A stretch of DNA of 64,000 nt from positions 186,001 through 250,000 of the forward strand of contig JAHBBC010000015.1 of NCBI GenBank assembly GCA_019915015.1, in the 5' to 3' direction. This document shows, one piece after another, positions 27,638 through 62,700 of the stretch (its first letter is position 1; each line of letters begins with the position of its first letter). Source of the stretch: Auriscalpium vulgare. Taxonomy: Eukaryota > Basidiomycota > Agaricomycetes > Russulales > Auriscalpiaceae. Below the pieces are notes generated by a model. It was not told the DNA's origin, did no database searches, and worked only from the letters and a program-made list of their open reading frames with translations. Position numbers and translations under genes: made by a program.

Positions 27638-29223
27638 ATGGCTTCCAATAATCCGTTCAGGACGCCAACAGTGACCCCCATGCCCACCGGAGCATCTACT
27701 TTCAGCTCTCCGGGATACTTCCCACCTCCTCAGGGCCCGTCGCCGCCTCACCTCCTCACTTCAAATACTGGTGGAGGCGTCCAGGCTCCGGTGCGATCAG
27801 GCTCAGAGAGTCCTGTGGACGATGGGCCACCTGAGCAGCTTCCAGGTCTGGCGCCCCGACCTTCCCTCACACGCCCGGGCCCAACACCCGTGGCGCCGCC
27901 TCTCCCACCGCGCGTATCTACTTCTTCCGTGACAAGTCGAGTCGACTCCCTGGGGCCGCCATCGGGCACGCCTCCACCTCTCCCATCTCGTATAACCGCA
28001 CCGAGTCGAGTCGACTCTCTCGGGCCGCCGTCTGGGACGCCTCCACCTCTCCCATCTCGTATAACTGTCTCCTCCCCGACGAATCAGTCCTTTGACCTCC
28101 CGACGAATACTCCTCCTACAGACGACGCTCCGCCACCTGCGTATACACCCACACCCGATGCCTATATCGGGGAGAGCACTGTCGACATCGGGCCGCGGCG
28201 GCCATTTCAGCCAGCGCCCCAGCCTGCCCCTCCCGTGCACCCTGCAAACAATTGGGGTCCGCCCGCGCCACCAGCAAACAACTGGGCCCCGCCACCCCAG
28301 GCACCTCCCAATAACTGGGGATCACCTTCGCCTCCCGCAAACAACTGGATTCTTCCGCAGCAGGCATCTCCCTCGCTCCGCGCTTCCTCGCCCGACATTC
28401 GTCCGCTGTCACAGCCAACTAGCCCGCAGGCAGATCTATCGGATTTTGCCAGGGAGTTCTACTCTGCGGGCGCTGGGACGCCAGGGCAGGATGACCCACA
28501 GCCACGGTTTGCGCCCCCGCCAGGAGAACCGCCGCGACGCCCGAGCACAGCGGCAGGTTCGAGCACGCGCCATGGCGGAGGAGGCGGAAGTGGAAACGGC
28601 CCCTCGAATGATGGGCGGCCGACATCGACGCCCACTCCCGGTCATCCACTGCTGAACAAAGGCAGGATTCTCGTGTATCCCCAGGGATACACTTGCGATA
28701 AGTGTACGTCAAGTATACGACTTGATTGACGCAAAGCACTGATCTCCTTGAAGGCCTTAATACGGGTTACAAGTCATATGATCCAACACACCCGTGTCGA
28801 AAGGATTGGGAACGCTACGGGCGCACATACACGGCCATCTTCGACTCGAGTCCGTGGGGCCCGAATGCGTCGCAGGGTAACCGCACAAAGTGGTCGTTCC
28901 AGAAGCCCCTTCCAGACCTCCGTGGACCTCCGCAGGCATCCACATCTGCGTCTTCGTCGTACCTCACTCCCCCCGGCACCGCGCACCGCCGCTCCGTATC
29001 GCAGCCTCAAGGTCCGCCGCCGCTCAACCGGGCGCCCTCTCGTCCCGTTGCTGTGCTCCCTGGCATGCGGCCACCCCCCGGGGCGACCGTCGTAATGCCT
29101 GGCGACCCGCGTATCGGCGGACAGCTGTGCTGGCGTTGCGGCGGGCGGGGCATGACGCCATTCCTGATCTTCGACGAACTGCCTTGCGAGACGTGCGGAG
29201 GAGTAGGCAGAGTGTTTCCATAG
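27638..29223 (+). CDS. HUA1-like proline-rich zinc-binding protein
   Basis: ATG 27638, exon 1 to about 28704, one intron (GTACGT..TTGAAG), exon 2 to TAG 29221-29223. The N-terminal two-thirds is Pro/Ser-rich with a 23-residue perfect-period duplication (SRVDSLGPPSGTPPPLPSRI twice, 69-bp period, from 27935) and four PPANNW-type repeats. The C-terminal part has YPQGYTCDKC joined to LNTGYKSYDPTHPCRKDWER, then LCWRCGGRGMTPF and LPCETCGGVGR. This matches the Cys-rich end of yeast Hua1, a cytoplasmic protein linked to actin-patch and ubiquitin-sorting factors. Function here is inferred from the family. Confidence 0.78.
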
Positions 29224-42101: not shown

Positions 42102-42533
42102 AACGACAGGCGCGGAGTCCACTAATTCAAGTAAGCAAGGGAACGGGCAGGAGTGAGGGGAAGCGGGAACAAGAAGTAGAACGAGGCCCCGCCGCTCGCC
42201 AGTTCCTTGGCTAGAAACGTCCGTGGCGGCGGGGAAGAATCTAAAGTAAAAAGACGCGACACCGAGGGAGAGCTCACCACAGAAAGTTCAGACGGACAGG
42301 CAGGTGAGGAAGAGAGTCGTGTAGCAGGGCGGGCCTCAGCTTCGCGTCTTTTGTGGGACGTCTTTTGTGGGGCGTGCGTGTGGCCGTTAGGGAACGAATG
42401 TCGGTGTAGATGCCGCGACGCGCCTGTGGCGGGTCTCCGGCAGTTGCCGGAGCGCGGCTTGCGATCTGGCCCAGACGCTAGCATTACCGGCGGAACGTAC
42501 GTAGAGTAACTAGGACAAAGCAAGAGTAACTAC

Positions 42534-42875
42534 ATGTTGAAGAGAGCCGTTGCTACACACGGCAGGCGATTCCACGCAAGCATGGGAACCAAAGTTAAGA
42601 AGAATACATCATGAATTCGAAAATGTAACAGTTGATACCTGTGACAAATTAGAGATTTCCTGGGAATGAAAGATTTTGAGGCTTTCCTTAGCTACTTATT
42701 GAGGCGTATTTAATGAGATGAAAAGGGAGCTACAATAAATATATACTTACATATGATGAGTTCTACATGTTTGCATTTTGTTATTTGCTACAGTAGCACT
42801 CAATGAAAGCATTAAAATTAAACATGTAGGATATAAAGAAGGATTATATATTATGCATAATATATATATATAAAG
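42534..42875 (+). repeat. 5' end region shared with copy R
   Basis: About 335 bp, inverted match to 61235-61566. The first 51 bp differ at three sites; further in, homology is patchy but collinear (GAAAATGT, TGGGAATG, GGGAGCTA, TATATACTTACA, TTGTTATTTGC, GAAAGCATT, AAACATGT in the same order). Confidence 0.7.
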
Positions 42876-42909
42876 AATAAAGTAAATGAATTTAAAATCG
42901 ATTTTTTTC

Positions 42910-45900
42910 GGAAAACGCGGGTGAGCCTCGGGTGAACCCGTAAAGTGTACTTTACTTCGGACTCCGGCGCGCTATTCTTCTCCTTGAAAGAACTGATTCC
43001 CAATGTGGAATCAGAACAGGATATGCTTCAAGAGATGTGTAGGGTGCCTAGGTCGAAAATGTACGAACCTTCAGGAAGTTGTAGACACCCTTCAAGAAAA
43101 TGTATGGACCCTTCAAAGGTTTGTAGTCCCCCTTCAAGATGCACAGGCATGGCAGTTTGCGATCTTTAATTCTTCTAGACCGCAAATGCAAAGTAATCTT
43201 TCTTTATTTCGGTGAGCTCAAATTTATTTTATATTGCGCCTGCCCAGAAGCCAATAGAGCTGTCAATATTCAGATGTTGATATATGTCGCACTCAATAGC
43301 ACTCAGCCTCTGAGCTGACCCAGCGACATTGAGTCTTTTAATATGTATTGTGCTCAGAAAGAATTTAATAATGCTCCGGAAAAACGCGGGTGAGCCTCGG
43401 GTGAACCCGTAAAGTGTACTTTACTTCGGACTCCGGCGCGCTATTCTTCTCCTTGAAAGAACTGATTCCCAATGTGGAATCAGAACAGGATATGCTTCAA
43501 GAGATGTGTAGGGTGCCTAGGTCGAAAATGTACGAACCTTCAGGAAGTTGTAGACACCCTTCAAGAAAATGTATGGACCCTTCAAAGGTTTGTAGTCCCC
43601 CTTCAAGATGCACAGGCATGGCAGTTTGCGATCTTTAATTCTTCTAGACCGCAAATGCAAAGTAATCTTTCTTTATTTCGGTGAGCTCAAATTTATTTTA
43701 TATTGCGCCTGCCCAGAAGCCAATAGAGCTGTCAATATTCAGATGTTGATATATGTCGCACTCAATAGCACTCAGCCTCTGAGCTGACCCAGCGACATTG
43801 AGTCTTTTAATATGTATTGTGCTCAGAAAGAATTTAATAATGCTCCGGAAAAACGCGGGTGAGCCTCGGGTGAACCCGTAAAGTGTACTTTACTTCGGAC
43901 TCCGACGCGCTATTCTTCTCCTTGAAAGAACTGATTCCCAATGTGGAATCAGAACAGGATATGCTTCAAGAGATGTGTAGGGTGCCTAGGTCGAAAATGT
44001 ACGAACCTTCAGGAAGTTGTAGACACCCTTCAAGAAAATGTATGGACCCTTCAAAGGTTTGTAGTCCCCCTTCAAGATGCACAGGCATGGCAGTTTGCGA
44101 TCTTTAATTCTTCTAGACCGCAAATGCAAAGTAATCTTTCTTTATTTCGGTGAGCTCAAATTTATTTTATATTGCGCCTGCCCAGAAGCCAATAGAGCTG
44201 TCAATATTCAGATGTTGATATATGTCGCACTCAATAGCACTCAGCCTCTGAGCTGACCCAGCGACATTGAGTCTTTTAATATGTATTGTGCTCAGAAAGA
44301 ATTTAATAATGCTCCGGAAAAACGCGGGTGAGCCTCGGGTGAACCCGTAAAGTGTACTTTACTTCGGACTCCGGCGCGCTATTCTTCTCCTTGAAAGAAC
44401 TGATTCCCAATGTGGAATCAGAACAGGATATGCTTCAAGAGATGTGTAGGGTGCCTAGGTCGAAAATGTACGAACCTTCAGGAAGTTGTAGACACCCTTC
44501 AAGAAAATGTATGGACCCTTCAAAGGTTTGTAGTCCCCCTTCAAGATGCACAGGCATGGCAGTTTGCGATCTTTAATTCTTCTAGACCGCAAATGCAAAG
44601 TAATCTTTCTTTATTTCGGTGAGCTCAAATTTATTTTATATTGCGCCTGCCCAGAAGCCAATAGAGCTGTCAATATTCAGATGTTGATATATGTCGCACT
44701 CAATAGCACTCAGCCTCTGAGCTGACCCAGCGACATTGAGTCTTTTAATATGTATTGTGCTCAGAAAGAATTTAATAATGCTCCGGAAAAACGCGGGTGA
44801 GCCTCGGGTGAACCCGTAAAGTGTACTTTACTTCGGACTCCGGCGCGCTATTCTTCTCCTTGAAAGAACTGATTCCCAATGTGGAATCAGAACAGGATAT
44901 GCTTCAAGAGATGTGTAGGGTGCCTAGGTCGAAAATGTACGAACCTTCAGGAAGTTGTAGACACCCTTCAAGAAAATGTATGGACCCTTCAAAGGTTTGT
45001 AGTCCCCCTTCAAGATGCACAGGCATGGCAGTTTGCGATCTTTAATTCTTCTAGACCGCAAATGCAAAGTAATCTTTCTTTATTTCGGTGAGCTCAAATT
45101 TATTTTATATTGCGCCTGCCCAGAAGCCAATAGAGCTGTCAATATTCAGATGTTGATATATGTCGCACTCAATAGCACTCAGCCTCTGAGCTGACCCAGC
45201 GACATTGAGTCTTTTAATATGTATTGTGCTCAGAAAGAATTTAATAATGCTCCGGAAAAACGCGGGTGAGCCTCGGGTGAACCCGTAAAGTGTACTTTAC
45301 TTCGGACTCCGGCGCGCTATTCTTCTCCTTGAAAGAACTGATTCCCAATGTGGAATCAGAACAGGATATGCTTCAAGAGATGTGTAGGGTGCCTAGGTCG
45401 AAAATGTACGAACCTTCAGGAAGTTGTAGACACCCTTCAAGAAAATGTATGGACCCTTCAAAGGTTTGTAGTCCCCCTTCAAGATGCACAGGCATGGCAG
45501 TTTGCGATCTTTAATTCTTCTAGACCGCAAATGCAAAGTAATCTTTCTTTATTTCGGTGAGCTCAAATTTATTTTATATTGCGCCTGCCCAGAAGCCAAT
45601 AGAGCTGTCAATATTCAGATGTTGATATATGTCGCACTCAATAGCACTCAGCCTCTGAGCTGACCCAGCGACATTGAGTCTTTTAATATGTATTGTGCTC
45701 AGAAAGAATTTAATAATGCTCCGGAAAAACGCGGGTGAGCCTCGGGTGAACCCGTAAAGTGTACTTTACTTCGGACTCCGGCGCGCTATTCTTCTCCTTG
45801 AAAGAACTGATTCCCAATGTGGAATCAGAACAGGATATGCTTCAAGAGATGTGTAGGGTGCCTAGGTCGAAAATGTACGAACCTTCAGGAAGTTGTAGAC

Positions 45901-48900
45901 ACCCTTCAAGAAAATGTATGGACCCTTCAAAGGTTTGTAGTCCCCCTTCAAGATGCACAGGCATGGCAGTTTGCGATCTTTAATTCTTCTAGACCGCAAA
46001 TGCAAAGTAATCTTTCTTTATTTCGGTGAGCTCAAATTTATTTTATATTGCGCCTGCCCAGAAGCCAATAGAGCTGTCAATATTCAGATGTTGATATATG
46101 TCGCACTCAATAGCACTCAGCCTCTGAGCTGACCCAGCGACATTGAGTCTTTTAATATGTATTGTGCTCAGAAAGAATTTAATAATGCTCCGGAAAAACG
46201 CGGGTGAGCCTCGGGTGAACCCGTAAAGTGTACTTTACTTCGGACTCCGGCGCGCTATTCTTCTCCTTGAAAGAACTGATTCCCAATGTGGAATCAGAAC
46301 AGGATATGCTTCAAGAGATGTGTAGGGTGCCTAGGTCGAAAATGTACGAACCTTCAGGAAGTTGTAGACACCCTTCAAGAAAATGTATGGACCCTTCAAA
46401 GGTTTGTAGTCCCCCTTCAAGATGCACAGGCATGGCAGTTTGCGATCTTTAATTCTTCTAGACCGCAAATGCAAAGTAATCTTTCTTTATTTCGGTGAGC
46501 TCAAATTTATTTTATATTGCGCCTGCCCAGAAGCCAATAGAGCTGTCAATATTCAGATGTTGATATATGTCGCACTCAATAGCACTCAGCCTCTGAGCTG
46601 ACCCAGCGACATTGAGTCTTTTAATATGTATTGTGCTCAGAAAGAATTTAATAATGCTCCGGAAAAACGCGGGTGAGCCTCGGGTGAACCCGTAAAGTGT
46701 ACTTTACTTCGGACTCCGGCGCGCTATTCTTCTCCTTGAAAGAACTGATTCCCAATGTGGAATCAGAACAGGATATGCTTCAAGAGATGTGTAGGGTGCC
46801 TAGGTCGAAAATGTACGAACCTTCAGGAAGTTGTAGACACCCTTCAAGAAAATGTATGGACCCTTCAAAGGTTTGTAGTCCCCCTTCAAGATGCACAGGC
46901 ATGGCAGTTTGCGATCTTTAATTCTTCTAGACCGCAAATGCAAAGTAATCTTTCTTTATTTCGGTGAGCTCAAATTTATTTTATATTGCGCCTGCCCAGA
47001 AGCCAATAGAGCTGTCAATATTCAGATGTTGATATATGTCGCACTCAATAGCACTCAGCCTCTGAGCTGACCCAGCGACATTGAGTCTTTTAATATGTAT
47101 TGTGCTCAGAAAGAATTTAATAATGCTCCGGAAAAACGCGGGTGAGCCTCGGGTGAACCCGTAAAGTGTACTTTACTTCGGACTCCGGCGCGCTATTCTT
47201 CTCCTTGAAAGAACTGATTCCCAATGTGGAATCAGAACAGGATATGCTTCAAGAGATGTGTAGGGTGCCTAGGTCGAAAATGTACGAACCTTCAGGAAGT
47301 TGTAGACACCCTTCAAGAAAATGTATGGACCCTTCAAAGGTTTGTAGTCCCCCTTCAAGATGCACAGGCATGGCAGTTTGCGATCTTTAATTCTTCTAGA
47401 CCGCAAATGCAAAGTAATCTTTCTTTATTTCGGTGAGCTCAAATTTATTTTATATTGCGCCTGCCCAGAAGCCAATAGAGCTGTCAATATTCAGATGTTG
47501 ATATATGTCGCACTCAATAGCACTCAGCCTCTGAGCTGACCCAGCGACATTGAGTCTTTTAATATGTATTGTGCTCAGAAAGAATTTAATAATGCTCCGG
47601 AAAAACGCGGGTGAGCCTCGGGTGAACCCGTAAAGTGTACTTTACTTCGGACTCCGGCGCGCTATTCTTCTCCTTGAAAGAACTGATTCCCAATGTGGAA
47701 TCAGAACAGGATATGCTTCAAGAGATGTGTAGGGTGCCTAGGTCGAAAATGTACGAACCTTCAGGAAGTTGTAGACACCCTTCAAGAAAATGTATGGACC
47801 CTTCAAAGGTTTGTAGTCCCCCTTCAAGATGCACAGGCATGGCAGTTTGCGATCTTTAATTCTTCTAGACCGCAAATGCAAAGTAATCTTTCTTTATTTC
47901 GGTGAGCTCAAATTTATTTTATATTGCGCCTGCCCAGAAGCCAATAGAGCTGTCAATATTCAGATGTTGATATATGTCGCACTCAATAGCACTCAGCCTC
48001 TGAGCTGACCCAGCGACATTGAGTCTTTTAATATGTATTGTGCTCAGAAAGAATTTAATAATGCTCCGGAAAAACGCGGGTGAGCCTCGGGTGAACCCGT
48101 AAAGTGTACTTTACTTCGGACTCCGGCGCGCTATTCTTCTCCTTGAAAGAACTGATTCCCAATGTGGAATCAGAACAGGATATGCTTCAAGAGATGTGTA
48201 GGGTGCCTAGGTCGAAAATGTACGAACCTTCAGGAAGTTGTAGACACCCTTCAAGAAAATGTATGGACCCTTCAAAGGTTTGTAGTCCCCCTTCAAGATG
48301 CACAGGCATGGCAGTTTGCGATCTTTAATTCTTCTAGACCGCAAATGCAAAGTAATCTTTCTTTATTTCGGTGAGCTCAAATTTATTTTATATTGCGCCT
48401 GCCCAGAAGCCAATAGAGCTGTCAATATTCAGATGTTGATATATGTCGCACTCAATAGCACTCAGCCTCTGAGCTGACCCAGCGACATTGAGTCTTTTAA
48501 TATGTATTGTGCTCAGAAAGAATTTAATAATGCTCCGGAAAAACGCGGGTGAGCCTCGGGTGAACCCGTAAAGTGTACTTTACTTCGGACTCCGACGCGC
48601 TATTCTTCTCCTTGAAAGAACTGATTCCCAATGTGGAATCAGAACAGGATATGCTTCAAGAGATGTGTAGGGTGCCTAGGTCGAAAATGTACGAACCTTC
48701 AGGAAGTTGTAGACACCCTTCAAGAAAATGTATGGACCCTTCAAAGGTTTGTAGTCCCCCTTCAAGATGCACAGGCATGGCAGTTTGCGATCTTTAATTC
48801 TTCTAGACCGCAAATGCAAAGTAATCTTTCTTTATTTCGGTGAGCTCAAATTTATTTTATATTGCGCCTGCCCAGAAGCCAATAGAGCTGTCAATATTCA

Positions 48901-51900
48901 GATGTTGATATATGTCGCACTCAATAGCACTCAGCCTCTGAGCTGACCCAGCGACATTGAGTCTTTTAATATGTATTGTGCTCAGAAAGAATTTAATAAT
49001 GCTCCGGAAAAACGCGGGTGAGCCTCGGGTGAACCCGTAAAGTGTACTTTACTTCGGACTCCGACGCGCTATTCTTCTCCTTGAAAGAACTGATTCCCAA
49101 TGTGGAATCAGAACAGGATATGCTTCAAGAGATGTGTAGGGTGCCTAGGTCGAAAATGTACGAACCTTCAGGAAGTTGTAGACACCCTTCAAGAAAATGT
49201 ATGGACCCTTCAAAGGTTTGTAGTCCCCCTTCAAGATGCACAGGCATGGCAGTTTGCGATCTTTAATTCTTCTAGACCGCAAATGCAAAGTAATCTTTCT
49301 TTATTTCGGTGAGCTCAAATTTATTTTATATTGCGCCTGCCCAGAAGCCAATAGAGCTGTCAATATTCAGATGTTGATATATGTCGCACTCAATAGCACT
49401 CAGCCTCTGAGCTGACCCAGCGACATTGAGTCTTTTAATATGTATTGTGCTCAGAAAGAATTTAATAATGCTCCGGAAAAACGCGGGTGAGCCTCGGGTG
49501 AACCCGTAAAGTGTACTTTACTTCGGACTCCGACGCGCTATTCTTCTCCTTGAAAGAACTGATTCCCAATGTGGAATCAGAACAGGATATGCTTCAAGAG
49601 ATGTGTAGGGTGCCTAGGTCGAAAATGTACGAACCTTCAGGAAGTTGTAGACACCCTTCAAGAAAATGTATGGACCCTTCAAAGGTTTGTAGTCCCCCTT
49701 CAAGATGCACAGGCATGGCAGTTTGCGATCTTTAATTCTTCTAGACCGCAAATGCAAAGTAATCTTTCTTTATTTCGGTGAGCTCAAATTTATTTTATAT
49801 TGCGCCTGCCCAGAAGCCAATAGAGCTGTCAATATTCAGATGTTGATATATGTCGCACTCAATAGCACTCAGCCTCTGAGCTGACCCAGCGACATTGAGT
49901 CTTTTAATATGTATTGTGCTCAGAAAGAATTTAATAATGCTCCGGAAAAACGCGGGTGAGCCTCGGGTGAACCCGTAAAGTGTACTTTACTTCGGACTCC
50001 GACGCGCTATTCTTCTCCTTGAAAGAACTGATTCCCAATGTGGAATCAGAACAGGATATGCTTCAAGAGATGTGTAGGGTGCCTAGGTCGAAAATGTACG
50101 AACCTTCAGGAAGTTGTAGACACCCTTCAAGAAAATGTATGGACCCTTCAAAGGTTTGTAGTCCCCCTTCAAGATGCACAGGCATGGCAGTTTGCGATCT
50201 TTAATTCTTCTAGACCGCAAATGCAAAGTAATCTTTCTTTATTTCGGTGAGCTCAAATTTATTTTATATTGCGCCTGCCCAGAAGCCAATAGAGCTGTCA
50301 ATATTCAGATGTTGATATATGTCGCACTCAATAGCACTCAGCCTCTGAGCTGACCCAGCGACATTGAGTCTTTTAATATGTATTGTGCTCAGAAAGAATT
50401 TAATAATGCTCCGGAAAAACGCGGGTGAGCCTCGGGTGAACCCGTAAAGTGTACTTTACTTCGGACTCCGACGCGCTATTCTTCTCCTTGAAAGAACTGA
50501 TTCCCAATGTGGAATCAGAACAGGATATGCTTCAAGAGATGTGTAGGGTGCCTAGGTCGAAAATGTACGAACCTTCAGGAAGTTGTAGACACCCTTCAAG
50601 AAAATGTATGGACCCTTCAAAGGTTTGTAGTCCCCCTTCAAGATGCACAGGCATGGCAGTTTGCGATCTTTAATTCTTCTAGACCGCAAATGCAAAGTAA
50701 TCTTTCTTTATTTCGGTGAGCTCAAATTTATTTTATATTGCGCCTGCCCAGAAGCCAATAGAGCTGTCAATATTCAGATGTTGATATATGTCGCACTCAA
50801 TAGCACTCAGCCTCTGAGCTGACCCAGCGACATTGAGTCTTTTAATATGTATTGTGCTCAGAAAGAATTTAATAATGCTCCGGAAAAACGCGGGTGAGCC
50901 TCGGGTGAACCCGTAAAGTGTACTTTACTTCGGACTCCGACGCGCTATTCTTCTCCTTGAAAGAACTGATTCCCAATGTGGAATCAGAACAGGATATGCT
51001 TCAAGAGATGTGTAGGGTGCCTAGGTCGAAAATGTACGAACCTTCAGGAAGTTGTAGACACCCTTCAAGAAAATGTATGGACCCTTCAAAGGTTTGTAGT
51101 CCCCCTTCAAGATGCACAGGCATGGCAGTTTGCGATCTTTAATTCTTCTAGACCGCAAATGCAAAGTAATCTTTCTTTATTTCGGTGAGCTCAAATTTAT
51201 TTTATATTGCGCCTGCCCAGAAGCCAATAGAGCTGTCAATATTCAGATGTTGATATATGTCGCACTCAATAGCACTCAGCCTCTGAGCTGACCCAGCGAC
51301 ATTGAGTCTTTTAATATGTATTGTGCTCAGAAAGAATTTAATAATGCTCCGGAAAAACGCGGGTGAGCCTCGGGTGAACCCGTAAAGTGTACTTTACTTC
51401 GGACTCCGACGCGCTATTCTTCTCCTTGAAAGAACTGATTCCCAATGTGGAATCAGAACAGGATATGCTTCAAGAGATGTGTAGGGTGCCTAGGTCGAAA
51501 ATGTACGAACCTTCAGGAAGTTGTAGACACCCTTCAAGAAAATGTATGGACCCTTCAAAGGTTTGTAGTCCCCCTTCAAGATGCACAGGCATGGCAGTTT
51601 GCGATCTTTAATTCTTCTAGACCGCAAATGCAAAGTAATCTTTCTTTATTTCGGTGAGCTCAAATTTATTTTATATTGCGCCTGCCCAGAAGCCAATAGA
51701 GCTGTCAATATTCAGATGTTGATATATGTCGCACTCAATAGCACTCAGCCTCTGAGCTGACCCAGCGACATTGAGTCTTTTAATATGTATTGTGCTCAGA
51801 AAGAATTTAATAATGCTCCGGAAAAACGCGGGTGAGCCTCGGGTGAACCCGTAAAGTGTACTTTACTTCGGACTCCGACGCGCTATTCTTCTCCTTGAAA

Positions 51901-53695
51901 GAACTGATTCCCAATGTGGAATCAGAACAGGATATGCTTCAAGAGATGTGTAGGGTGCCTAGGTCGAAAATGTACGAACCTTCAGGAAGTTGTAGACACC
52001 CTTCAAGAAAATGTATGGACCCTTCAAAGGTTTGTAGTCCCCCTTCAAGATGCACAGGCATGGCAGTTTGCGATCTTTAATTCTTCTAGACCGCAAATGC
52101 AAAGTAATCTTTCTTTATTTCGGTGAGCTCAAATTTATTTTATATTGCGCCTGCCCAGAAGCCAATAGAGCTGTCAATATTCAGATGTTGATATATGTCG
52201 CACTCAATAGCACTCAGCCTCTGAGCTGACCCAGCGACATTGAGTCTTTTAATATGTATTGTGCTCAGAAAGAATTTAATAATGCTCCGGAAAAACGCGG
52301 GTGAGCCTCGGGTGAACCCGTAAAGTGTACTTTACTTCGGACTCCGACGCGCTATTCTTCTCCTTGAAAGAACTGATTCCCAATGTGGAATCAGAACAGG
52401 ATATGCTTCAAGAGATGTGTAGGGTGCCTAGGTCGAAAATGTACGAACCTTCAGGAAGTTGTAGACACCCTTCAAGAAAATGTATGGACCCTTCAAAGGT
52501 TTGTAGTCCCCCTTCAAGATGCACAGGCATGGCAGTTTGCGATCTTTAATTCTTCTAGACCGCAAATGCAAAGTAATCTTTCTTTATTTCGGTGAGCTCA
52601 AATTTATTTTATATTGCGCCTGCCCAGAAGCCAATAGAGCTGTCAATATTCAGATGTTGATATATGTCGCACTCAATAGCACTCAGCCTCTGAGCTGACC
52701 CAGCGACATTGAGTCTTTTAATATGTATTGTGCTCAGAAAGAATTTAATAATGCTCCGGAAAAACGCGGGTGAGCCTCGGGTGAACCCGTAAAGTGTACT
52801 TTACTTCGGACTCCGACGCGCTATTCTTCTCCTTGAAAGAACTGATTCCCAATGTGGAATCAGAACAGGATATGCTTCAAGAGATGTGTAGGGTGCCTAG
52901 GTCGAAAATGTACGAACCTTCAGGAAGTTGTAGACACCCTTCAAGAAAATGTATGGACCCTTCAAAGGTTTGTAGTCCCCCTTCAAGATGCACAGGCATG
53001 GCAGTTTGCGATCTTTAATTCTTCTAGACCGCAAATGCAAAGTAATCTTTCTTTATTTCGGTGAGCTCAAATTTATTTTATATTGCGCCTGCCCAGAAGC
53101 CAATAGAGCTGTCAATATTCAGATGTTGATATATGTCGCACTCAATAGCACTCAGCCTCTGAGCTGACCCAGCGACATTGAGTCTTTTAATATGTATTGT
53201 GCTCAGAAAGAATTTAATAATGCTCCGGAAAAACGCGGGTGAGCCTCGGGTGAACCCGTAAAGTGTACTTTACTTCGGACTCCGACGCGCTATTCTTCTC
53301 CTTGAAAGAACTGATTCCCAATGTGGAATCAGAACAGGATATGCTTCAAGAGATGTGTAGGGTGCCTAGGTTGAAAATGTACGAACCTTCAGGAAGTTGT
53401 AGACACCCTTCAAGAAAATGTATGGACCCTTCAAAGGTTTGTAGTCCCCCTTCAAGATGCACAGGCATGGCAGTTTGCGATCTTTAATTCTTCTAGACCG
53501 CAAATGCAAAGTAATCTTTCTTTATTTCGGTGAGCTCAAATTTATTTTATATTGCGCCTGCCCAGAAGCCAATAGAGCTGTCAATATTCAGATGTTGATA
53601 TATGTCGCACTCAATAGCACTCAGCCTCTGAGCTGACCCAGCGACATTGAGTCTTTTAATATGTATTGTGCTCAGAAAGAATTTAATAATGCTCC
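42910..53695 (+). repeat. 469-bp satellite, 23 full tandem units
   Basis: Unit 1 is 468 bp (one A fewer); units 2-23 start every 469 bp from 43378. Units are almost identical. One recurring G/A site (GGACTCCG followed by G or A) gives the pattern G,G,A, then nine G, then eleven A; unit 23 also has a C-to-T change near 53371. Each unit contains the ~109-bp hairpin end of the insertion, then ~360 bp. The unit also holds GTAAAGTGTACTTTAC and a 70-codon ATG frame. The 74-codon frames begin with GTG and are not genes. Confidence 0.95.
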
Positions 53696-53804
53696 GGAAA
53701 AACGCGGGTGAGCCTCGGGTGAACCCGTAAAGTGTACTTTACTTCGGACTCCGGCGCGCTATTCTTCTCCTTGAAAGAACTGATTCCCAATGTGGAATCA
53801 GAAC
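53696..53804 (+). repeat. Terminal hairpin end of copy L (partial 24th unit)
   Basis: The first 109 bp of the 469-bp unit, after which the sequence switches to unrelated GC-rich DNA (GAAGCTACCACGCC). The hairpin at 53780-53801 has stem CTGATTCC/GGAATCAG and a 6-nt loop. An inverted copy at 57049-57158 is about 85% identical. Confidence 0.8.
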
Positions 53805-53906
53805 GAAGCTACCACGCCTACCAGCCGTACACCTGCCTGAAATGTGAGCGATTCACCCTGCCATGACAAGTAAGCTTTGGTGTGAAGTGCAGAGGGGAAG
53901 ACGAAC

Positions 53907-54615
53907 TCACATATGGCCCTCGAAGATGAGCACACGATCCTTCTGCGCCGCCTCAAACGCACCCGCACCCTGTCGAAAGAGGTCCAAAAGCTGGTGGAAG
54001 CCCGCGACGCGACGGCGGCGAGCGTGCAAGGCGGTCGTGAAGCGGTTGTCGGAGCGACGACCGTGAGCCTCACGTCGAAAGGCAGATGCACTCCGGAGGG
54101 AGATCTCGAGCTGGGCCTCTAAGTCCTCCAAAAGGGGCTCAAGGCCCGAGGCTGGCCCGCCCTCTTCAAGCTGTTCCTTGAGCTCGACGCACTTCAGAAG
54201 TGCAAAGTCTTCGTCGTCGCGGTCGTCTGCGCTGACGTCGGGATCGAAGGGACTGCTGACGCCGATGCGACGTACCCGGCCCATTGGACTGTAGTAAGAG
54301 CTGCGAAAACATACGATCAGTCAGTTTGCGGTCTTGGGGAGGCTGGGACCACTCACGACGTCTCCCCATCCAACACACTAAACCTCCTTGCCATGGTGAC
54401 CACCCTATCGACCTCTGAAAGCCTGCGGCCGCCTTTGCGAAGACCTTTGCGAAGGTGGTACTGGTACCGTTTCTTCTCCGCCAGCTTCTCTTTGTTCCTA
54501 GTAAATAGATAGCAGATGAGTATACTTAAGAGAGTGAAGTGTGTGGTCAGGCGCACCTGGCACGGTACCGTCGCTGAGCGGCCTTTCGCTTCTCGCCTGA
54601 CCGGTTCTCCACCAT
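53907..54615 (-). CDS. Small basic protein, transposon cargo
   Basis: ATG at 54615: MVENRSGEKRKAAQRRYRAR, intron, then NKEKLAEKKRYQYHLRKGLR and RVVTMARRFSVLDGE, intron, and a last exon MGRVRRIGVSSPFDPDVSAD to QKDRVLIFEGHM with TGA at 53907. The N-terminus looks like a basic region (regular K/R, RRYRARNKEKLAEKKR), similar to many small Agaricomycete ORFs of the type RYRxxNREKLxxKxR. The acidic helical C-terminus could dimerise. DNA binding is a guess. It lies between the RNase-H1-N-like gene and the TET/JBP gene, all on one strand. Confidence 0.6.
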
Positions 54616-55116
54616 TCAGAAGTGTGGTTGCAGTGGATAGTACGTGTTGATGAAAGTGGCGGTGACGAACCGTCAGGCTTGAGACGCTCTTGATGCCAGC
54701 CAAAGGTCACGTGTACGCGAGTCTCGAGAACGAAGTTCAGCTAGCTTTGGGAGATCGACGAGACCTGGCAGCGCGCGGATATATAGAACTGCAAACCACA
54801 GACAGCCCCAGCTCAGATCTCTACTTACATTTTGTCAAGGATCCAGTCATGGGATGTAAGGTCTCTGACATTGATTCATGGAGTCTGAGAGCCAGTGTAA
54901 TGCACGAGTGCCAGGTCTGACTCTTGGCTCACAAATTTTTAGAAGCAGCTCAATTATCGTGGAGAGGCTCAGACTTCATCATATATAGCCGTTGAAGCAG
55001 ATATTTATATTCTGTACAGAGGATACATATGTGAATAAATTCAATGTGCTACATGGACACGGCCCCGAGCCCGTGCGTGTCTGAGCTCTGTGCGAGCAGC
55101 CGAGAGCGTCCTGTAG

Positions 55117-56610
55117 CTACAATGTACGGCGCAACTGACACGGTGAACCTGTTCCTTCGCCTCTGGCCTGCGCTCGTGTCATCTGGCTGCATATGTTCGG
55201 AGAAAGAATCTACTCACCAGGTCCCATAGATGCCGGGCTGGCGACCAACGAAGACCACATACCATGGCCCCAGGTCCGACTCCCGAGCGCGGCCGAGGAC
55301 GGGTTCCACCCGAAGCTTGCTCGCTGTCGAGTGTCTAGAGGCAGTTAATGCGCTTGCGCGACTCGAGGCGCTCACGCTTGATACGCTCGAGGTGCTCGAG
55401 GCAGAAGACGTTGGAGGACCGCCGGAAGCGGCGGCAGCAGGCGGCGAGAGAGTCCACACCCCGCCGTAGGATTCCGCTGCGGAGCGGAACTGCTGCTGTC
55501 GCTATTTGCCAGCGTAAGCAGCGGGCTGCCTGAGGTTTAGAGAAGGGCGTACCTGGATGTAGGAATGCTCTCCCAGAGCCTCCACATGTCCGTCCTTCAG
55601 GGCCTGTCGAAAGAAGTCCGCGGCTTCGAAGGGCGAGTCGAACTCGGTCCATTTCGCGTCGCTAAAGAAAGCGACCTGAAGGAGGGCGTCTTGGCTGAGA
55701 AGCTGCATCAGCGTGTGGGCTTATCGCGACGTGCACCAACTCACCGATTGTACAGGCCTGGAACAAAGCCGCGAGTGACGGCTGCGGTCAGCCCTGCAGG
55801 AAGAAGTGTCTGTCCTTGGCGACGCAGTAGGACGTGTCTCTGTGAAGGGCGGCTCTGTGAGTGAGCTGCTCATATTGAAGAGGGAGCGCACGCACCTCCT
55901 TGGCGCCGCTGGTGCCCGAGGCAACCACTATGCCTCTCTGATACGCCTCCCGCATCTTATCGGCCAACGCCCAGGTGGGCACGCTCTTGAACGAGTTTGG
56001 GTACAGCCCGAAGACGTGCGCCTCTGCCGTCGCCCTGTGGAAGGCATCAGAGAGGTCCAGGCCATAGACGCAGCTACTCACCAGTCTGGGTAGATGCCAG
56101 GCACAAAACCCCGACGCACGACGAAGGACGCGGGCTCGTCTTGAAGGCGCGTGTCGACAGGGCTTGGTGCGGAGCCCTTCTTCGACGCTCCCGCTGTAGA
56201 GCTCAGCCCGGAGGTCGGCGCTGTGGCCTTGAACGCCTTCACCGCAGTTCCCGGTACACCTTGCGTGCGGGCTGCAGCTTCGTACCTGTCGTTCGCCACT
56301 GTTGTGAGCGTATACCTTGATGTGATGAGACACCACGCACCAAGGACCAACAATCGACACCTCTCCTGCCTCCCGAACACGGTAGTTATGACTGTTCCTC
56401 TGAGCTGGCTGCGGGGAGGCGGCGGTCTCGTGTTCTAACTCTGTTGTTGTAAGTTCAACGTCACAGGAGATGCTGAAGTCACTCACTGCGCAGATCCGAC
56501 AGGTCCAAGGACGCGATCAACTCCGAGAGGTCGTCATCCGCGTCGATGGAGGCCTCCACCTCGAGGTCTTCCAGGTCAATGTCGATGACGCGCAAGAGGT
56601 CGATGGGCAT
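55117..56610 (-). CDS. Protein with repeated RNase-H1-N-terminal-like (viroplasmin-type) modules
   Basis: Proposed start MPIDLLRVIDIDLEDLEVEA (ATG 56610), an acidic head. After introns, module 1 reads FVVRRGFVPGIYPDW joined to ATAEAHVFGLYPNSFKSVPT and WALADKMREAYQRG. Module 2 reads VTRGFVPGLYNR joined to QDALLQVAFFSDAKWTEFDS and FEAADFFRQALKDG. A Ser/Ala-rich linker then leads to a third start, WYVVFVGRQPGIYGTW (55260-55214), whose second half is not recognisable. The G-x-x-P-G-x-Y core and the following helix resemble the RNase H1 N-terminal/caulimovirus viroplasmin fold, a nucleic-acid-binding module expanded in fungi. No RNase H catalytic domain. The 3' end (TAG at 55117) is uncertain. Confidence 0.55.
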
Positions 56611-56753
56611 GTTCGGAGTGGGGGATGGTGGTTGCAGAGCCAAAGGTGTGTTTGTTATCTCTCGGAGGCTTATCGCTAAATCTTGTTGATCTCGCGTGCG
56701 CTGGTCTCACGACTTGGCAAGCTTCATTACATCTGATCTACACTACTCAAACA

Positions 56754-59700
56754 CTACAGTACAGACATTCGATGTACAATATCGCCCAGCTGCAGTATCT
56801 CTTCGTTGACCTCGTCGTCATCCTCTATCTCTGCCACGTCCTCGCCCTCGCCCTCATCGTCGTCTTCCACCCGCCGCTCGACTCCGCTGTAGCTGATGGT
56901 GGGCGTCGGGCCGGTATACCCCTTAAGCGAATAGATTTGCGAGAGCCGGCGTCTGTGAGCGTCGTTGACTTTAGCGCGAGCCGCCTGCAGCTGTGACATG
57001 TGTGAGGAGAGGTGAGGTCGGCTGGCTTCAAGATCGCGTGCCCGAGCGGTTCTGATTCCATATTTGGAATCAGTTCTTTCGAGCAGAAAAATATGCCGTC
57101 GGAGTCCGAAGTAAAGTACAGTTTACGGTTTCACCCGGGCACACACCCGAGTTTTTCCGGTCGACAGTTTTACTCTTATATCTTCGTGGAAACAAGTTGG
57201 ATTTGCGATTGCTTTGTACCATTGGGAAGGTACGAGGAACAGCTTTCGAATGGTGCTTGTTTCATGAAATTTGAATGAGCAGATCGTGAGGAGTTAGTTT
57301 ATGATGTTCAGGCTGTTATCTTCATGTTTTTTAAATACTAAAAAGATCGCTTGCTGTTTTAATCGTTGAAATTATTGTGATGACATTGTGAACATATCAA
57401 CATTAGTTGCAAGATTGTGCATTCCTTGTCACATAATCTCTTGCTTTCATGATATTTGGATGAGCACACTGTGAGGTGTTGCTTTATGAAATTGAGACTA
57501 TGCTTTTGAATTAAGAATTCAGTATTGTCACCTCTGCTCTCTGCGGGGCTGACAATGTAAATTAAAAATTGAGGCTCTGGTGCAATATATATTGAAACAG
57601 GGGCCAAGTGTAGTCCGGTTTGAATTTGATTGAATAGTCAACATAGATAGTCAATATAAATCTAGGAAGGCGCTGAGACTGAGAACATTTTAGTGCCATA
57701 TGAATCAAACATTGAACCTTGTTGTATGATATAAATCCAAACAGGGGCTGAAGGGTGATCTGAAACAAATATTCAACCTTGCGGTGTGATATAAATTGAT
57801 ATAAATCCAAACAGAGGCTGAGTGCATTTTGGTATAACCTAAATTAAAAATCCAGTAATGTGGTATGATATAACGCAAAATAGGAGCTGGGTGCATTTTG
57901 GTGATATAGATTAAGAATCCAGCCTGGTGGTGTGATATAGATTAAAACAGGAGCTGAGTGCATTTAGGTGTGATCCAAATTAAATATCCAGCCTGGTGGC
58001 ATGATGTGAATTAATACAGGGGCTGAGAGCATTCTGGTGTGGCATGATGTGAATTTATACAAGGCTGAGTGCATTTTTTTGTGATCTCAATTAAAAATCC
58101 ATCCAAGTGGTGTGATGCAGATTTCAACAGGGCTGAGTGCATTTCTATGTGAGCTGAATTAAAAATCCACCCTGGTCATCTGATGTGAATTTAAACAGGG
58201 CTGAGTGCATTTCAGTGTGATCTGAATGAAATATTCAGCCCGGTGGTGTGATATTAATTAAAACAGGGGCTGAGTGCATTCTGGTTTGGTGTGATATGAA
58301 TATCAAGAGGGCTGAGTGCATTTGTTGAGCTTCAAATTAAATATTCAACCTGGTGGCATGATGTGAATATAAAGGGGGCTGAGTGCATTTTGGTATGATC
58401 TGAATTAAAAATCCACCCTACTCGTCTGATATGAATATCAACATGGCTGAGTGCATTTTGTTGTGCTTTGAATTAAATATTCAGCCCAGTGGGATGATGT
58501 GAATTAAAACAGGGGCTGAGTGCATTTTGGTGTGATCTGAATCAAAAATCCACCCTGGTCGTCTGATATGAATATCAAGATGGCTGAGTGCATTTTGTTG
58601 TGCTTTGAATTAAATATCTAGCCCGGTGGCATGATGTGAATTAAAACAGGGGCTGAGTGCATTTTAGTGTGATCTGAATTAAATATTCAGCCTGGTGGCA
58701 TGATGTGAATTAAAACAGGGGCTGAGTGCATTTTGGTGTGATCTGAATTAAAAATCCAGCCCGGTGGTGTGATGTGAATTTAAACAGGGGCTGGGTGTAT
58801 TCCGGTGTGATCTGAATCCAGCCTGGTGGTTTGATGTAAATTAAAATGGGGCTGAGTGCATTTTGATGTGCTTTGAATGAAATATTCAGCCCAGTGGCAT
58901 GATGTGAATGAAAATAGGGGCTTTGTGCATTTTGTTGTGCTTTGAATTAAATATTCAGCCCAGTGGGATGATGTGAATTAAAACAGGGGCTGAGTGCATT
59001 TTGGTGTGATCTGAATCAAAAATCCACCCTGGTCGTCTGATATGAATATCAAGATGGCTGAGTGCATTTTGTTGTGCTTTGAATTAAATATCTAGCCCGG
59101 TGGCATGATGTGAATTAAAACTGGGGCTGAGTGCATTTTGGTGTGATCTGAATTAAATATTCAGCCTGGTGGCATGATGTGAATTAAAACAGGGGCTGAG
59201 TGCATTTTGGTGTGATCTGAATTAATAATCCAGCCCGGTGGTGTGATGTGAATTTAAACAGGGGCTGGGTGTATTCCGGTGTGATCTGAATCCAGCCTGG
59301 TGGTTTGATGTAAATTAAAATGGGGCTGAGTGCATTTTGATGTGCTTTGAATGAAATATTCAGCCCAGTGGCATGATGTGAATGAAAATAGGGGCTTTGT
59401 GCATTTTGTTGTGCTTTGAATTAAATATTCAGCCCAGTGGGATGATGTGAATTAAAACAGGGGCTGAGTGCATTTTGGTGTGATCTGAATCAAAAATCCA
59501 CCCTGGTCGTCTGATATGAATATCAACATGGCTCAGTGCATTTTGGTATGATCTGAATTAAAAATCCACCCTGGTCGTCTGATATGAATATCAACATGGC
59601 TGAGTGCATTTTGTTGTGCTTTGAATTAAATATTCAGCCCGGTGGCATGATGTGAATTAAAACAGGGGCTGAGTGCATTTTGGTATGATCTGAATTAAAA

Positions 59701-62700
59701 ATCCACCCTACTCGTCTGATATGAATATCAACATGGCTGAGTGCATTTTGTTGTGCTTTGAATTAAATATTCAGCCCAGTGGCATGATGTGAATTAAAAC
59801 AGGGGCTGAGTGCATTTTGGTGTGATCTGAATTAAAAATCCAGCCCGGTGGTTTGATGTGAATTTAAACGGGGCTGAGTGCATTTTGGTATGATCTGAAT
59901 TAAAAATCCACCCTACTCGTCTGATATGAATATCAACATGGCTGAGTGCATTTTGTTGTGCTTTGAATTAAATATTCAGCCCAGTGGCATGATGTGAATT
60001 AAAACAGGGGCTGAGTGCATTTTGGTGTGATCTGAATTAAAAATCCAGCCCGGTGGTTTGATGTGAATTTAAACGGGGCTGAGTGCATTTTGGTATGATC
60101 TGAATTAAAAATCCACCCTACTCGTCTGATATGAATATCAACATGGCTGAGTGCATTTTGTTGTGCTTTGAATTAAATATTCAGCCCGGTGGCATGATGT
60201 GAATATAAAGGGGGCTGAGTGCATTTTGGTATGATCTGAATTAAAAATCCACCCTACTCGTCTGATATGAATATCAACATGGCTGAGTGCATTTTGTTGT
60301 GCTTTGAATTAAATATTCAGCCCAGTGGGATGATGTGAATTAAAACAGGGGCTGAGTGCATTTTGGTGTGATCTGAATCAAAAATCCACCCTGGTCGTCT
60401 GATATGAATATCAAGATGGCTGAGTGCATTTTGTTGTGCTTTGAATTAAATATCTAGCCCGGTGGCATGATGTGAATTAAAACAGGGGCTGAGTGCATTT
60501 TAGTGTGATCTGAATTAAATATTCAGCCTGGTGGCATGATGTGAATTAAAACAGGGGCTGAGTGCATTTTGGTATGATCTGAATTAAAAATCCAGCCTGG
60601 TGGCATGATGTGAATTAAAACAGGGGCTGAGTGCATTTTGGTGTGATCTGAATTAAATATTCAGCCTGGTGGCATGATGTGAATTAAAACAGGGGCTGAG
60701 TGCATTTTGGTGTGATCGGAACTAAAAATCCACCCTGGTTGTCTGATATGAATATCAACATGGCTGAGTGCATTTTGTTGTGCTTTGAATTAAATATTCA
60801 GCCCGGTGGCATGATGTGAATTAAAACAGGGGCTGAGTGCATTTTGGTGTGATCTGAATTAAAAATCCAGCCTGGTGGTGCGATGTGAATTTAAACAGGG
60901 GCTGAGTGCATTCCGGTGTGATCTGAACTGAAATTCTAGCCTGGTGGTTTGATGTAAATTTAAATGGGGCTGAGTGCATTTCGCTGTGCTTTGAATTAAA
61001 AATCTGTCCTGGTGGTATTATGTGAATTCAAGAAGTGGCTCGCCTCAGTAGGCTTAGGGTTTGATTACTTTCGAGTGTAGCATAGATTAAAGATTCAATA
61101 TTGTTGCTTGTGTTTGTTCATGGCCTGGGTGCCATATACATTAACAATTCAATATTGACTGCTCTATTGGCTTCTGAACTAACGCCATATGTAGTAAATT
61201 TGACCTCAGATCATTGTTCATGTAGATTTAGGTCAGTATATCATCCATCCTTATAAGCCACATGTTTGCTACAAATGCTTTCCTTCACCACTCCTTCTGC
61301 AAATAACAAACTCTAAAATTGTTGAACTCCAAATGAATAGACATCACTTGTAAGTATATATAAACCATAGCTCCCTCTTTGTTTCCTCATGTACAACTGA
61401 ACAAATAATTGAGGGAAGACTGAGAATTTTGCATTCCCAAGGCATCTTTACTTTGTTGCTGGTATTTATAGTCACATTTTCAAATACATCATATACTCAC
61501 CATAACATTATTAACTATGCTTGGATGGAATCGCCTGCCGTGCGTAGCAACGGCTCTCTTCAACATGTGAGGTGTTCATCCTCGTAGTCGACCCAGGCTT
61601 GCAGTCGGGAGGCTTCGACGTTGAGCCGGATGAGCTCCTCTCGGGCGCGCTCAACCTTGAAGTGCTTCATAGCCGCCTCTCGATTGGCCGGTTTCGACCA
61701 CGGCCTGTCCAGGATGTCCGACCGCGATTCCTTCAGAAGGTCGAAGTCCGCTACCCAACTGTAGTCCGCACCTCGGAATAATTCAGGACGGGCCGCGGCG
61801 GAGTCTGGAGAGGCGCCAGCACGTTGTAGTGCTCCAGCGCGGTGCGGACGGCGCCCGACCGACGGGTTATTGCATGCGAGATGTGCTTGCGAAGTTTGTA
61901 ACCTGTACGTAGTTTAGCGGGTAGCATAGAGAGGGAATAGAGAGGCTCACCAGTTCCTGAGATGTTCGCCTTGGCAAGCTCGAAAAGTCTTTGCACAACG
62001 AGGCCCTCGAGAGCCTCCACCGCACGAACGAATTTTGATCTGTCGATGTGCCGTTGCACGGTGACGAACTCGGGCGAGTCGGACGTCCAGCGCTCCTCGA
62101 TGGCGAGTCGGCGCTCCAAGTCATCAACCACGTTCTGGGCGAGGACGAGCTGGCGGTGTGCGGTTCGGCGTTCAAGCTCCTTGGCCTTCACAGTGGCACT
62201 CCGTAGGACCGAGGGGTCATAGCCGTTTGGGAAGCTCACAGGCGTGTGCGTGAGGAAGTCTACCATGGTGATGCCACCGTACTTGGACCTTCAGAGAGTC
62301 AGATGGCGAGGAATATGATGTAAATGGAAACGTACTCGGCTGCCTCTAGGTGGATCAACGCCTCTACATAAGCTACCTTCTGTAGATCTTCTTCGGGCTC
62401 CTCTGCGAGGTTCTCAAGGTATTCACGCTCCTCCACCAGCCAACGCTCGAAGTCGGCCGCACCGAAGCCTTCTGCTGCCTGAAGACTTCAAGCTCACCCG
62501 TGTACTCTGATATCATGGCCAGACACTGCCGGTAGTTGTTAAATATAAATTTGCCTGCTACAAATCAGAGAAGTCCAAGAGAGAAGAGCAAGAGACGTAC
62601 TCAGCTCGGCGTATCGATCTTCGTCCCACCGACGAAGATGCAGGTCTAGGAATTGAATCCAGTGGAAGTAGGAGGCATGCCGGACCGTCCTCGCAACGCC

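Follow-up and report, generated by a model that had tools for sequence, protein, structure and literature searches.

A probable rolling-circle transposon family with Helitron2-like ends and a putative ~37-kb Rep-bearing partner in Auriscalpium vulgare

Elements L and R in the window

A 64,000-bp stretch of Auriscalpium vulgare DNA (assembly GCA_019915015.1, contig JAHBBC010000015.1, positions 186,001 to 250,000; hereafter the window) contains two AT-rich elements, L and R, which are interpreted here as non-autonomous members of one rolling-circle transposon family. L spans 42534-53802, or starts at 42533 with the C that precedes its ATG. R spans 61566-57051 on the minus strand. They point in opposite directions and are separated by 3.2 kb. 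An initial annotation had described them as inverted copies with both ends in common, AT-rich in a GC-rich locus and each filled with a different satellite, and all of this was borne out. Between L and R, the ATG-side ends agree at 70% of 330 columns (E 2e-44) and the hairpin-side ends at 85% of 108 columns (E 2e-32). L has a G+C content of 0.43 and R one of 0.39, compared with 0.57 for the remaining window. The interior of L consists of 23.2 copies of a 469-bp unit (99% matches), that of R of a satellite with periods of 69, 137 and 206 bp (78–83% matches).

In the transposon orientation preferred below, L occupies 42533..53802 on the minus strand, with its 5' end at 53802 and its 3' end at 42533, as judged from its ends and flanks and from the genome-wide pairing of ends. 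Its 3' terminal region, ATGTTGAAGAGAGCC... (42534..42911, minus strand; formerly taken for the 5' region), is 93–100% identical in full-length L-type copies and 70% identical to that of R. Within it, a subterminal inverted repeat (42568..42575, minus strand), which reads GATTCCAC on the plus strand, is identical to an 8-mer in the L 5' palindrome. The tandem array (42912..53802, minus strand) comprises 23 units and a last partial unit; 24 anchors gave 23 spacings, all of 469 bp. The 5' terminal palindrome, present in each unit, was placed at 53780..53802 (minus strand) by a folding test and by reading of the sequence.

R occupies 57051..61567 on the plus strand, and its ends as read place the 5' end at 57051 and the 3' end at 61567. 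Its 5' terminal palindrome, CTGATTCCATATTTGGAATCAG, lies at 57052..57073 and its satellite, delimited by tandem-repeat analysis and based on the 69-bp period, at 57797..61028. A subterminal inverted repeat, ATGGAATC (61525..61532), is followed by a predicted, weak 3' hairpin, GCCGTGCGTAGCAACGGC (61537..61554). All of these are on the plus strand.

Paired ends across the genome

The genome examined comprises 51.6 Mb in 96 contigs. Both ends were searched for separately, as the initial annotation had proposed. The 34-bp ATG-side tip (ATGTTGAAGAGAGCC) was found 49 times with up to 3 mismatches, and its reversed control not at all. For the hairpin ends, two exact patterns gave 43 matches in the genome and none in controls. 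These patterns miss ends followed by certain bases; a search with the R end added at least five, which brings the number to at least 48. For 34 of the 49 tips, one of the hairpin ends listed lay downstream in the same strand, at a distance of no more than 20 kb. In the wrong-orientation controls, five tips had an end upstream and seven an end on the opposite strand. With the distance extended to 65 kb, 39 of the 49 tips were paired, two tips on contig C35 using one common end. At least two unpaired tips are broken by other insertions (loci L034 and L013), and some lie near contig ends. The two ends thus occur genome-wide as pairs in fixed orientation, as had been expected of a mobile family.

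R is recent: 20 of 42 matches listed for its 3' region (367 bp) are 99–100% identical over the full length; one more is 99% identical over 351 bp. At C19:475107-532294, three R copies (L019, L020 and L021) flank stretches of 22,405 and 22,408 bp and have 400-bp flanks in common. Recombination between R copies is the probable origin of this tandem duplication.

Insertion sites

Flanks were tabulated for 22 copies; L020 was left out, as its flanks are the same as those of L019 and L021, and L029 was included. AC was found at the left edge and A at the right edge in all 22. For empty sites, the joined flanks of these copies were compared with the fetched loci. Spanning counterparts were obtained for three: L014 in L005 (96% identity), L025 in L023 (99%) and the window R in L042 (78%, a divergence too great for base-by-base reading). 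The paralogous empty sites of L014 and L025 show precise insertion without target duplication. One A belongs to the host and the C before ATG to the element. Of the AC flanks noted in the initial annotation, only one A is host sequence. A target duplication of AC was rejected, as the C is missing from the empty site of L014 in L005. At L013, an L-type end lies inside an R satellite, and the single readable side is consistent with the two close empty sites. Read in transposon orientation, the sites are G/T in 15, A/T in five and T/T in two of the 22 copies. The window R seems to sit in a 78%-identical relative of an insert in L042 that carries a KDZ transposase domain (see below).

Orientation and structure of the ends

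The element is better read in reverse to the initial annotation, with the hairpin at its 5' end. In this orientation it starts with TC and a palindrome, a copy of the inverted repeat lies 34 bp before the ...CAACAT end, and the Rep frame of the larger relatives described below is in sense. The family 3' end is ...CTCTTCAACATG, with the subterminal copy of the inverted repeat. Folding of the 5' palindrome was matched by none of 200 shuffled sequences in R and by two of 200 in L. For the 3' hairpin, a feature reported for some Helitron2 members, equally good shuffles numbered 58 of 200 (R), 51 of 200 (L) and 16 of 200 (large element). The asymmetric ends and the hairpin of the initial annotation are thereby retained, but the hairpin moves from the 3' to the 5' end. 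A TC-palindrome start with an inverted-repeat copy near the 3' end is also the layout of HINEs/Helentrons (PMC4067079) and of Fusarium Helitron2 (PMC5148889). Since reversed gene frames are also present among published elements of this layout (Fusarium Helitron2, PMC5148889), gene orientation alone cannot settle the orientation of an element.

The two ends of one copy had been described as not being inverted repeats of each other. This has to be amended: both carry an 8-bp subterminal inverted repeat, which agrees between the ends in 23 of 23 L/R copies. It reads GATTCCAT at both ends in R copies and in the large element, and GATTCCAC at both ends in two L copies. A single 8-bp match arose in 0.8–1.3% of 5000 shuffles, so the in-step change of the repeat between L and R is the stronger evidence.

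A large Rep-bearing relative

A third variant of the ATG-type tip occurs at eight places in the genome. At six of these, Helitron_like_N was matched above cut-off with 106 bits, in the same orientation and 11.2–13.9 kb from the tip. This score was absent from all other of the 50 matches listed. In four of the six copies the Rep frame has 2397 aa; in the other two it is disrupted or shorter (484 and 1038 aa). Score and frame length suggest that the six represent one type. Five of the eight tips have a hairpin end within 65 kb, with spans of 36.5 kb (C58), 37.3 kb (C19), 37.7 kb (C7), 44.9 kb and 61.0 kb (both C9); the two longer spans were probably enlarged by inserts. Over the 6 kb in which they were aligned, the copies on C7 and C58 show 99.8% identity.

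The tip of the C7 copy reads AC followed by ATGTTGAAG and is R-like over its first ~48 bp; at the hairpin end, the last 109 bp are the same as in R. Over the 24 kb read, its G+C content is 0.41. The Rep N-terminus (DUF6570 over cut-off) is followed by a tandem repeat, the R satellite and the hairpin end. Eight reading frames of the large element were compared with Pfam, and only the Rep piece exceeded the cut-off (DUF6570). One 145-aa frame had a single homologue, 92% identical over 79%, from Auriscalpium vulgare (order Russulales). Another Helitron of this genome (see below) encodes a 2478-aa protein with which the Rep N-terminus aligns over 295 columns at 33% identity. The ~37-kb element with its Rep-domain match is probably the autonomous partner, and L and R its non-autonomous relatives. 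A search for a full-length relative encoding Rep/helicase or a tyrosine recombinase had been suggested in the initial annotation.

The tandem repeat of the large element (L044:2600-4120) has three copies at spacings of ~465 and ~505 bp and lies just before the R satellite.

The 469-bp array of L

L is unusual in that its own 5' end recurs throughout a long and almost perfect tandem array, in which a complete 5' terminus is part of every one of the 23 near-identical units of 469 bp. By end coordinates, nine L-type copies have ~0, 1, 1, 1, 4, 8, 16, 23 and 28 units. A 478-bp copy served as yardstick. For the three one-unit copies, an additional stretch of 503 bp was first deducted. The counts of 4, 8 and 16 derive from end coordinates alone, and the insert-bearing copies at C9:358041 and C2:352030 were excluded. 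Private variants mark every unit in the two longest arrays read: compared with all other units read, three are present in all 23 window units and one in all 26 units on C3; none was found in four full-length units on C6 or in L040. Identical units number 25 of 26 in the C3 array and 11 of 23 in the window array. In the L branch, the 5' terminus and 360 bp beside it would have become the 469-bp unit, which would then have expanded within individual copies.

Ordinary unequal exchange after insertion probably accounts for the growth of the array, and the presence of a terminus in each unit would then be incidental. Recombination is favoured by L040 (C2:2150500-2158600), an L-type array in which 270-, 469- and 739-bp units are mixed, and by blocks at unit position 59 of the window array. 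The R satellite, moreover, expands though it lacks the terminus. Against unequal exchange, the near-absence of scatter among units, with 25 of the 26 C3 units identical, favours fast growth, and the copies fit whole-unit steps. Because a complete 5' terminus lies in every unit, it is conceivable that Rep nicks within the array. Growth by the transposition machinery itself, through rolling-circle copying in whole-unit bursts, is accordingly put forward as a tentative explanation. If it were true, Rep would release unit-sized or multi-unit strands, and the element would manufacture its own satellite.

Fusarium elements with multiple 5' termini have been published and were attributed to self-insertion (PMC5148889). 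No array of the present kind was found in a literature search, whose coverage excluded most subscription journals. How transposons give rise to satellite DNA has mostly been judged from copies that are old and scrambled. The present genome contains graded cases, starting with a 478-bp element that has one 5' terminus and reaching arrays of ~29, as well as a probable master with the same ends, which makes rolling-circle amplification testable against unequal exchange.

Classification and mode of transposition

The family was compared with the known classes feature by feature. As in Helitron2, it has an asymmetric inverted repeat (8 bp, changing in step), a 5' palindrome that surpasses nearly all shuffles, insertion without target duplication at the two close empty sites and a Rep-domain match in the putative autonomous partner, given by its above-cut-off Helitron_like_N score. 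The TT target of strict Helentrons was found at two of 22 sites, and a single T is needed. The Helitron/Helentron-like mobile family of the initial annotation, which had seen no enzyme in the window, is upheld by paired ends, empty sites and the larger relative, though not as a strict Helentron. Canonical Helitrons (Helitron1) have a 3' CTRR and an A/T target, compared with ...CAACATG and A/T at five of 22 sites here. The terminal inverted repeats (TIRs) and target duplication of TIR transposons were likewise absent. The family is therefore described as rolling-circle with Helitron2-like ends; membership in Helitron2 rests on ends and insertion, not on a Rep tree.

The FoHeli Helitron2 elements of Fusarium oxysporum (PMC5148889) likewise begin with TC and a 5' hairpin, insert without target duplication and include non-autonomous copies, some copies having multiple 5' termini. 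Their inverted repeat is asymmetric as well, its 3' copy lying tens of bp inward of the 3' end. They measure ~5-11 kb with repeats of 12–16 bp, compared with the probable ~37-kb partner and 8 bp here, and their target is TNAT next to A or T. Their duplicated 5' stretches are typically <200 bp, whereas here the 5' terminus occurs in up to ~29 units of 469 bp. Helentrons and their non-autonomous HINE/DINE-1 elements (PMC4067079) resemble the family in a subterminal palindromic repeat that lies 2-4 nt inside the 5' end and has a second copy tens of bp before the 3' end, in tandem repeats within non-autonomous copies and in a T adjoining the ends. Their repeat is longer (12–15 bp) and their target TT or T-rich; the published elements also have an endonuclease domain, which in strict Helentrons is an AP endonuclease fused to Rep/helicase. 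The HELPO Helitrons that are known from Pleurotus ostreatus (PMC4289320) are also basidiomycete Rep/helicase elements with non-autonomous derivatives, but their ends are CTRR or CTTG, their insertion sites lie between A and T and they measure 1.5–13.7 kb. Fungal Helitrons in the cited papers reach ~14 kb, which the probable master of this new basidiomycete family exceeds; maize Helitrons reach 39 kb (PMC6431247).

With a probability of roughly 0.85, L and R both belong to one rolling-circle (Helitron2-like) family as non-autonomous members, most likely mobilised in trans by the Rep of the ~37-kb element. This Rep would nick at the 5' palindrome. One strand would be peeled off up to the 3' end, presumably with helicase activity, and be joined into a new site beside T without target duplication; a circular intermediate may take part in the strand transfer.

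Several observations weigh against this reading. Ten of the 49 tips have no listed hairpin end, and the 3' hairpin of R, L and the large element is no better than shuffles by folding energy. At 8 bp, the inverted repeat falls short of the published 12–16 bp, with a chance of ~1% for one match. The Rep assignment is based on the Helitron_like_N match and on the N-terminus. Given its 33% match to a Helitron whose insertions look A/T-targeted, this Rep may be closer to canonical Helitrons than one would expect from the ends. Finally, none of 2596 candidates was scored when the padded Rep N-terminus served as query, for which the padding may be the cause.

It is improbable that the Rep frame is a passenger, brought by another Helitron into a master copy that then spread, with an unseen enzyme moving the family. 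Nesting of Helitrons in the family is known (the 2478-aa type in L elements at L013 and L034). Such an origin is at odds with the confinement of the 106-bit type to large copies among the matches listed, with its constant orientation and its position 11.2–13.9 kb from the tip in six of six copies, and with the rolling-circle type of the family's own ends. Membership in another class, as a tyrosine-recombinase element (Crypton- or Starship-like) or a TIR transposon, is very unlikely. Precise ends and a fixed flanking base would suit a recombinase too, but long inverted repeats are lacking, no target duplication was seen at the two close empty sites, and related large copies hold a Rep-domain frame; no search aimed at recombinases was made. 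Proximity and opposite orientation of L and R would fit the halves of one segmental inversion, which is practically dismissed by their differing interiors, the 70% identity at one end, flanks not in common and the many copies of each elsewhere, so that two separate insertions are retained.

Other elements in or beside the family

A second Helitron family, nested in L elements, encodes an intact 2478-aa Rep/PIF1 protein (DUF6570, Helitron_like_N and PIF1). It is present at L034:1071-8504 (minus strand) with an intact frame and at L013:2-6969 in two frames. It has its own 3' end, ...CCCCCCCAAG followed by T, and its insertions look A/T-targeted. Its Rep gave two named matches, from Athelia and Piloderma. 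This protein was rejected as the partner of L and R, since it belongs to the nested Helitron with that 3' end.

A 16.7-kb copy at C2:1668416-1685128 (L042 and L043) was considered as an autonomous element and rejected, since it proved to be an R copy interrupted by 11.6 kb of inserted DNA. The insert encodes a KDZ transposase domain, and an overlap of 8 bp is present at its edges. The long copies L015, L016 and L023 were likewise rejected as large elements, being interrupted R copies.

In the window, a 69-bp unit is present twice at 27935-28065 (91% alike), within GC-rich sequence.

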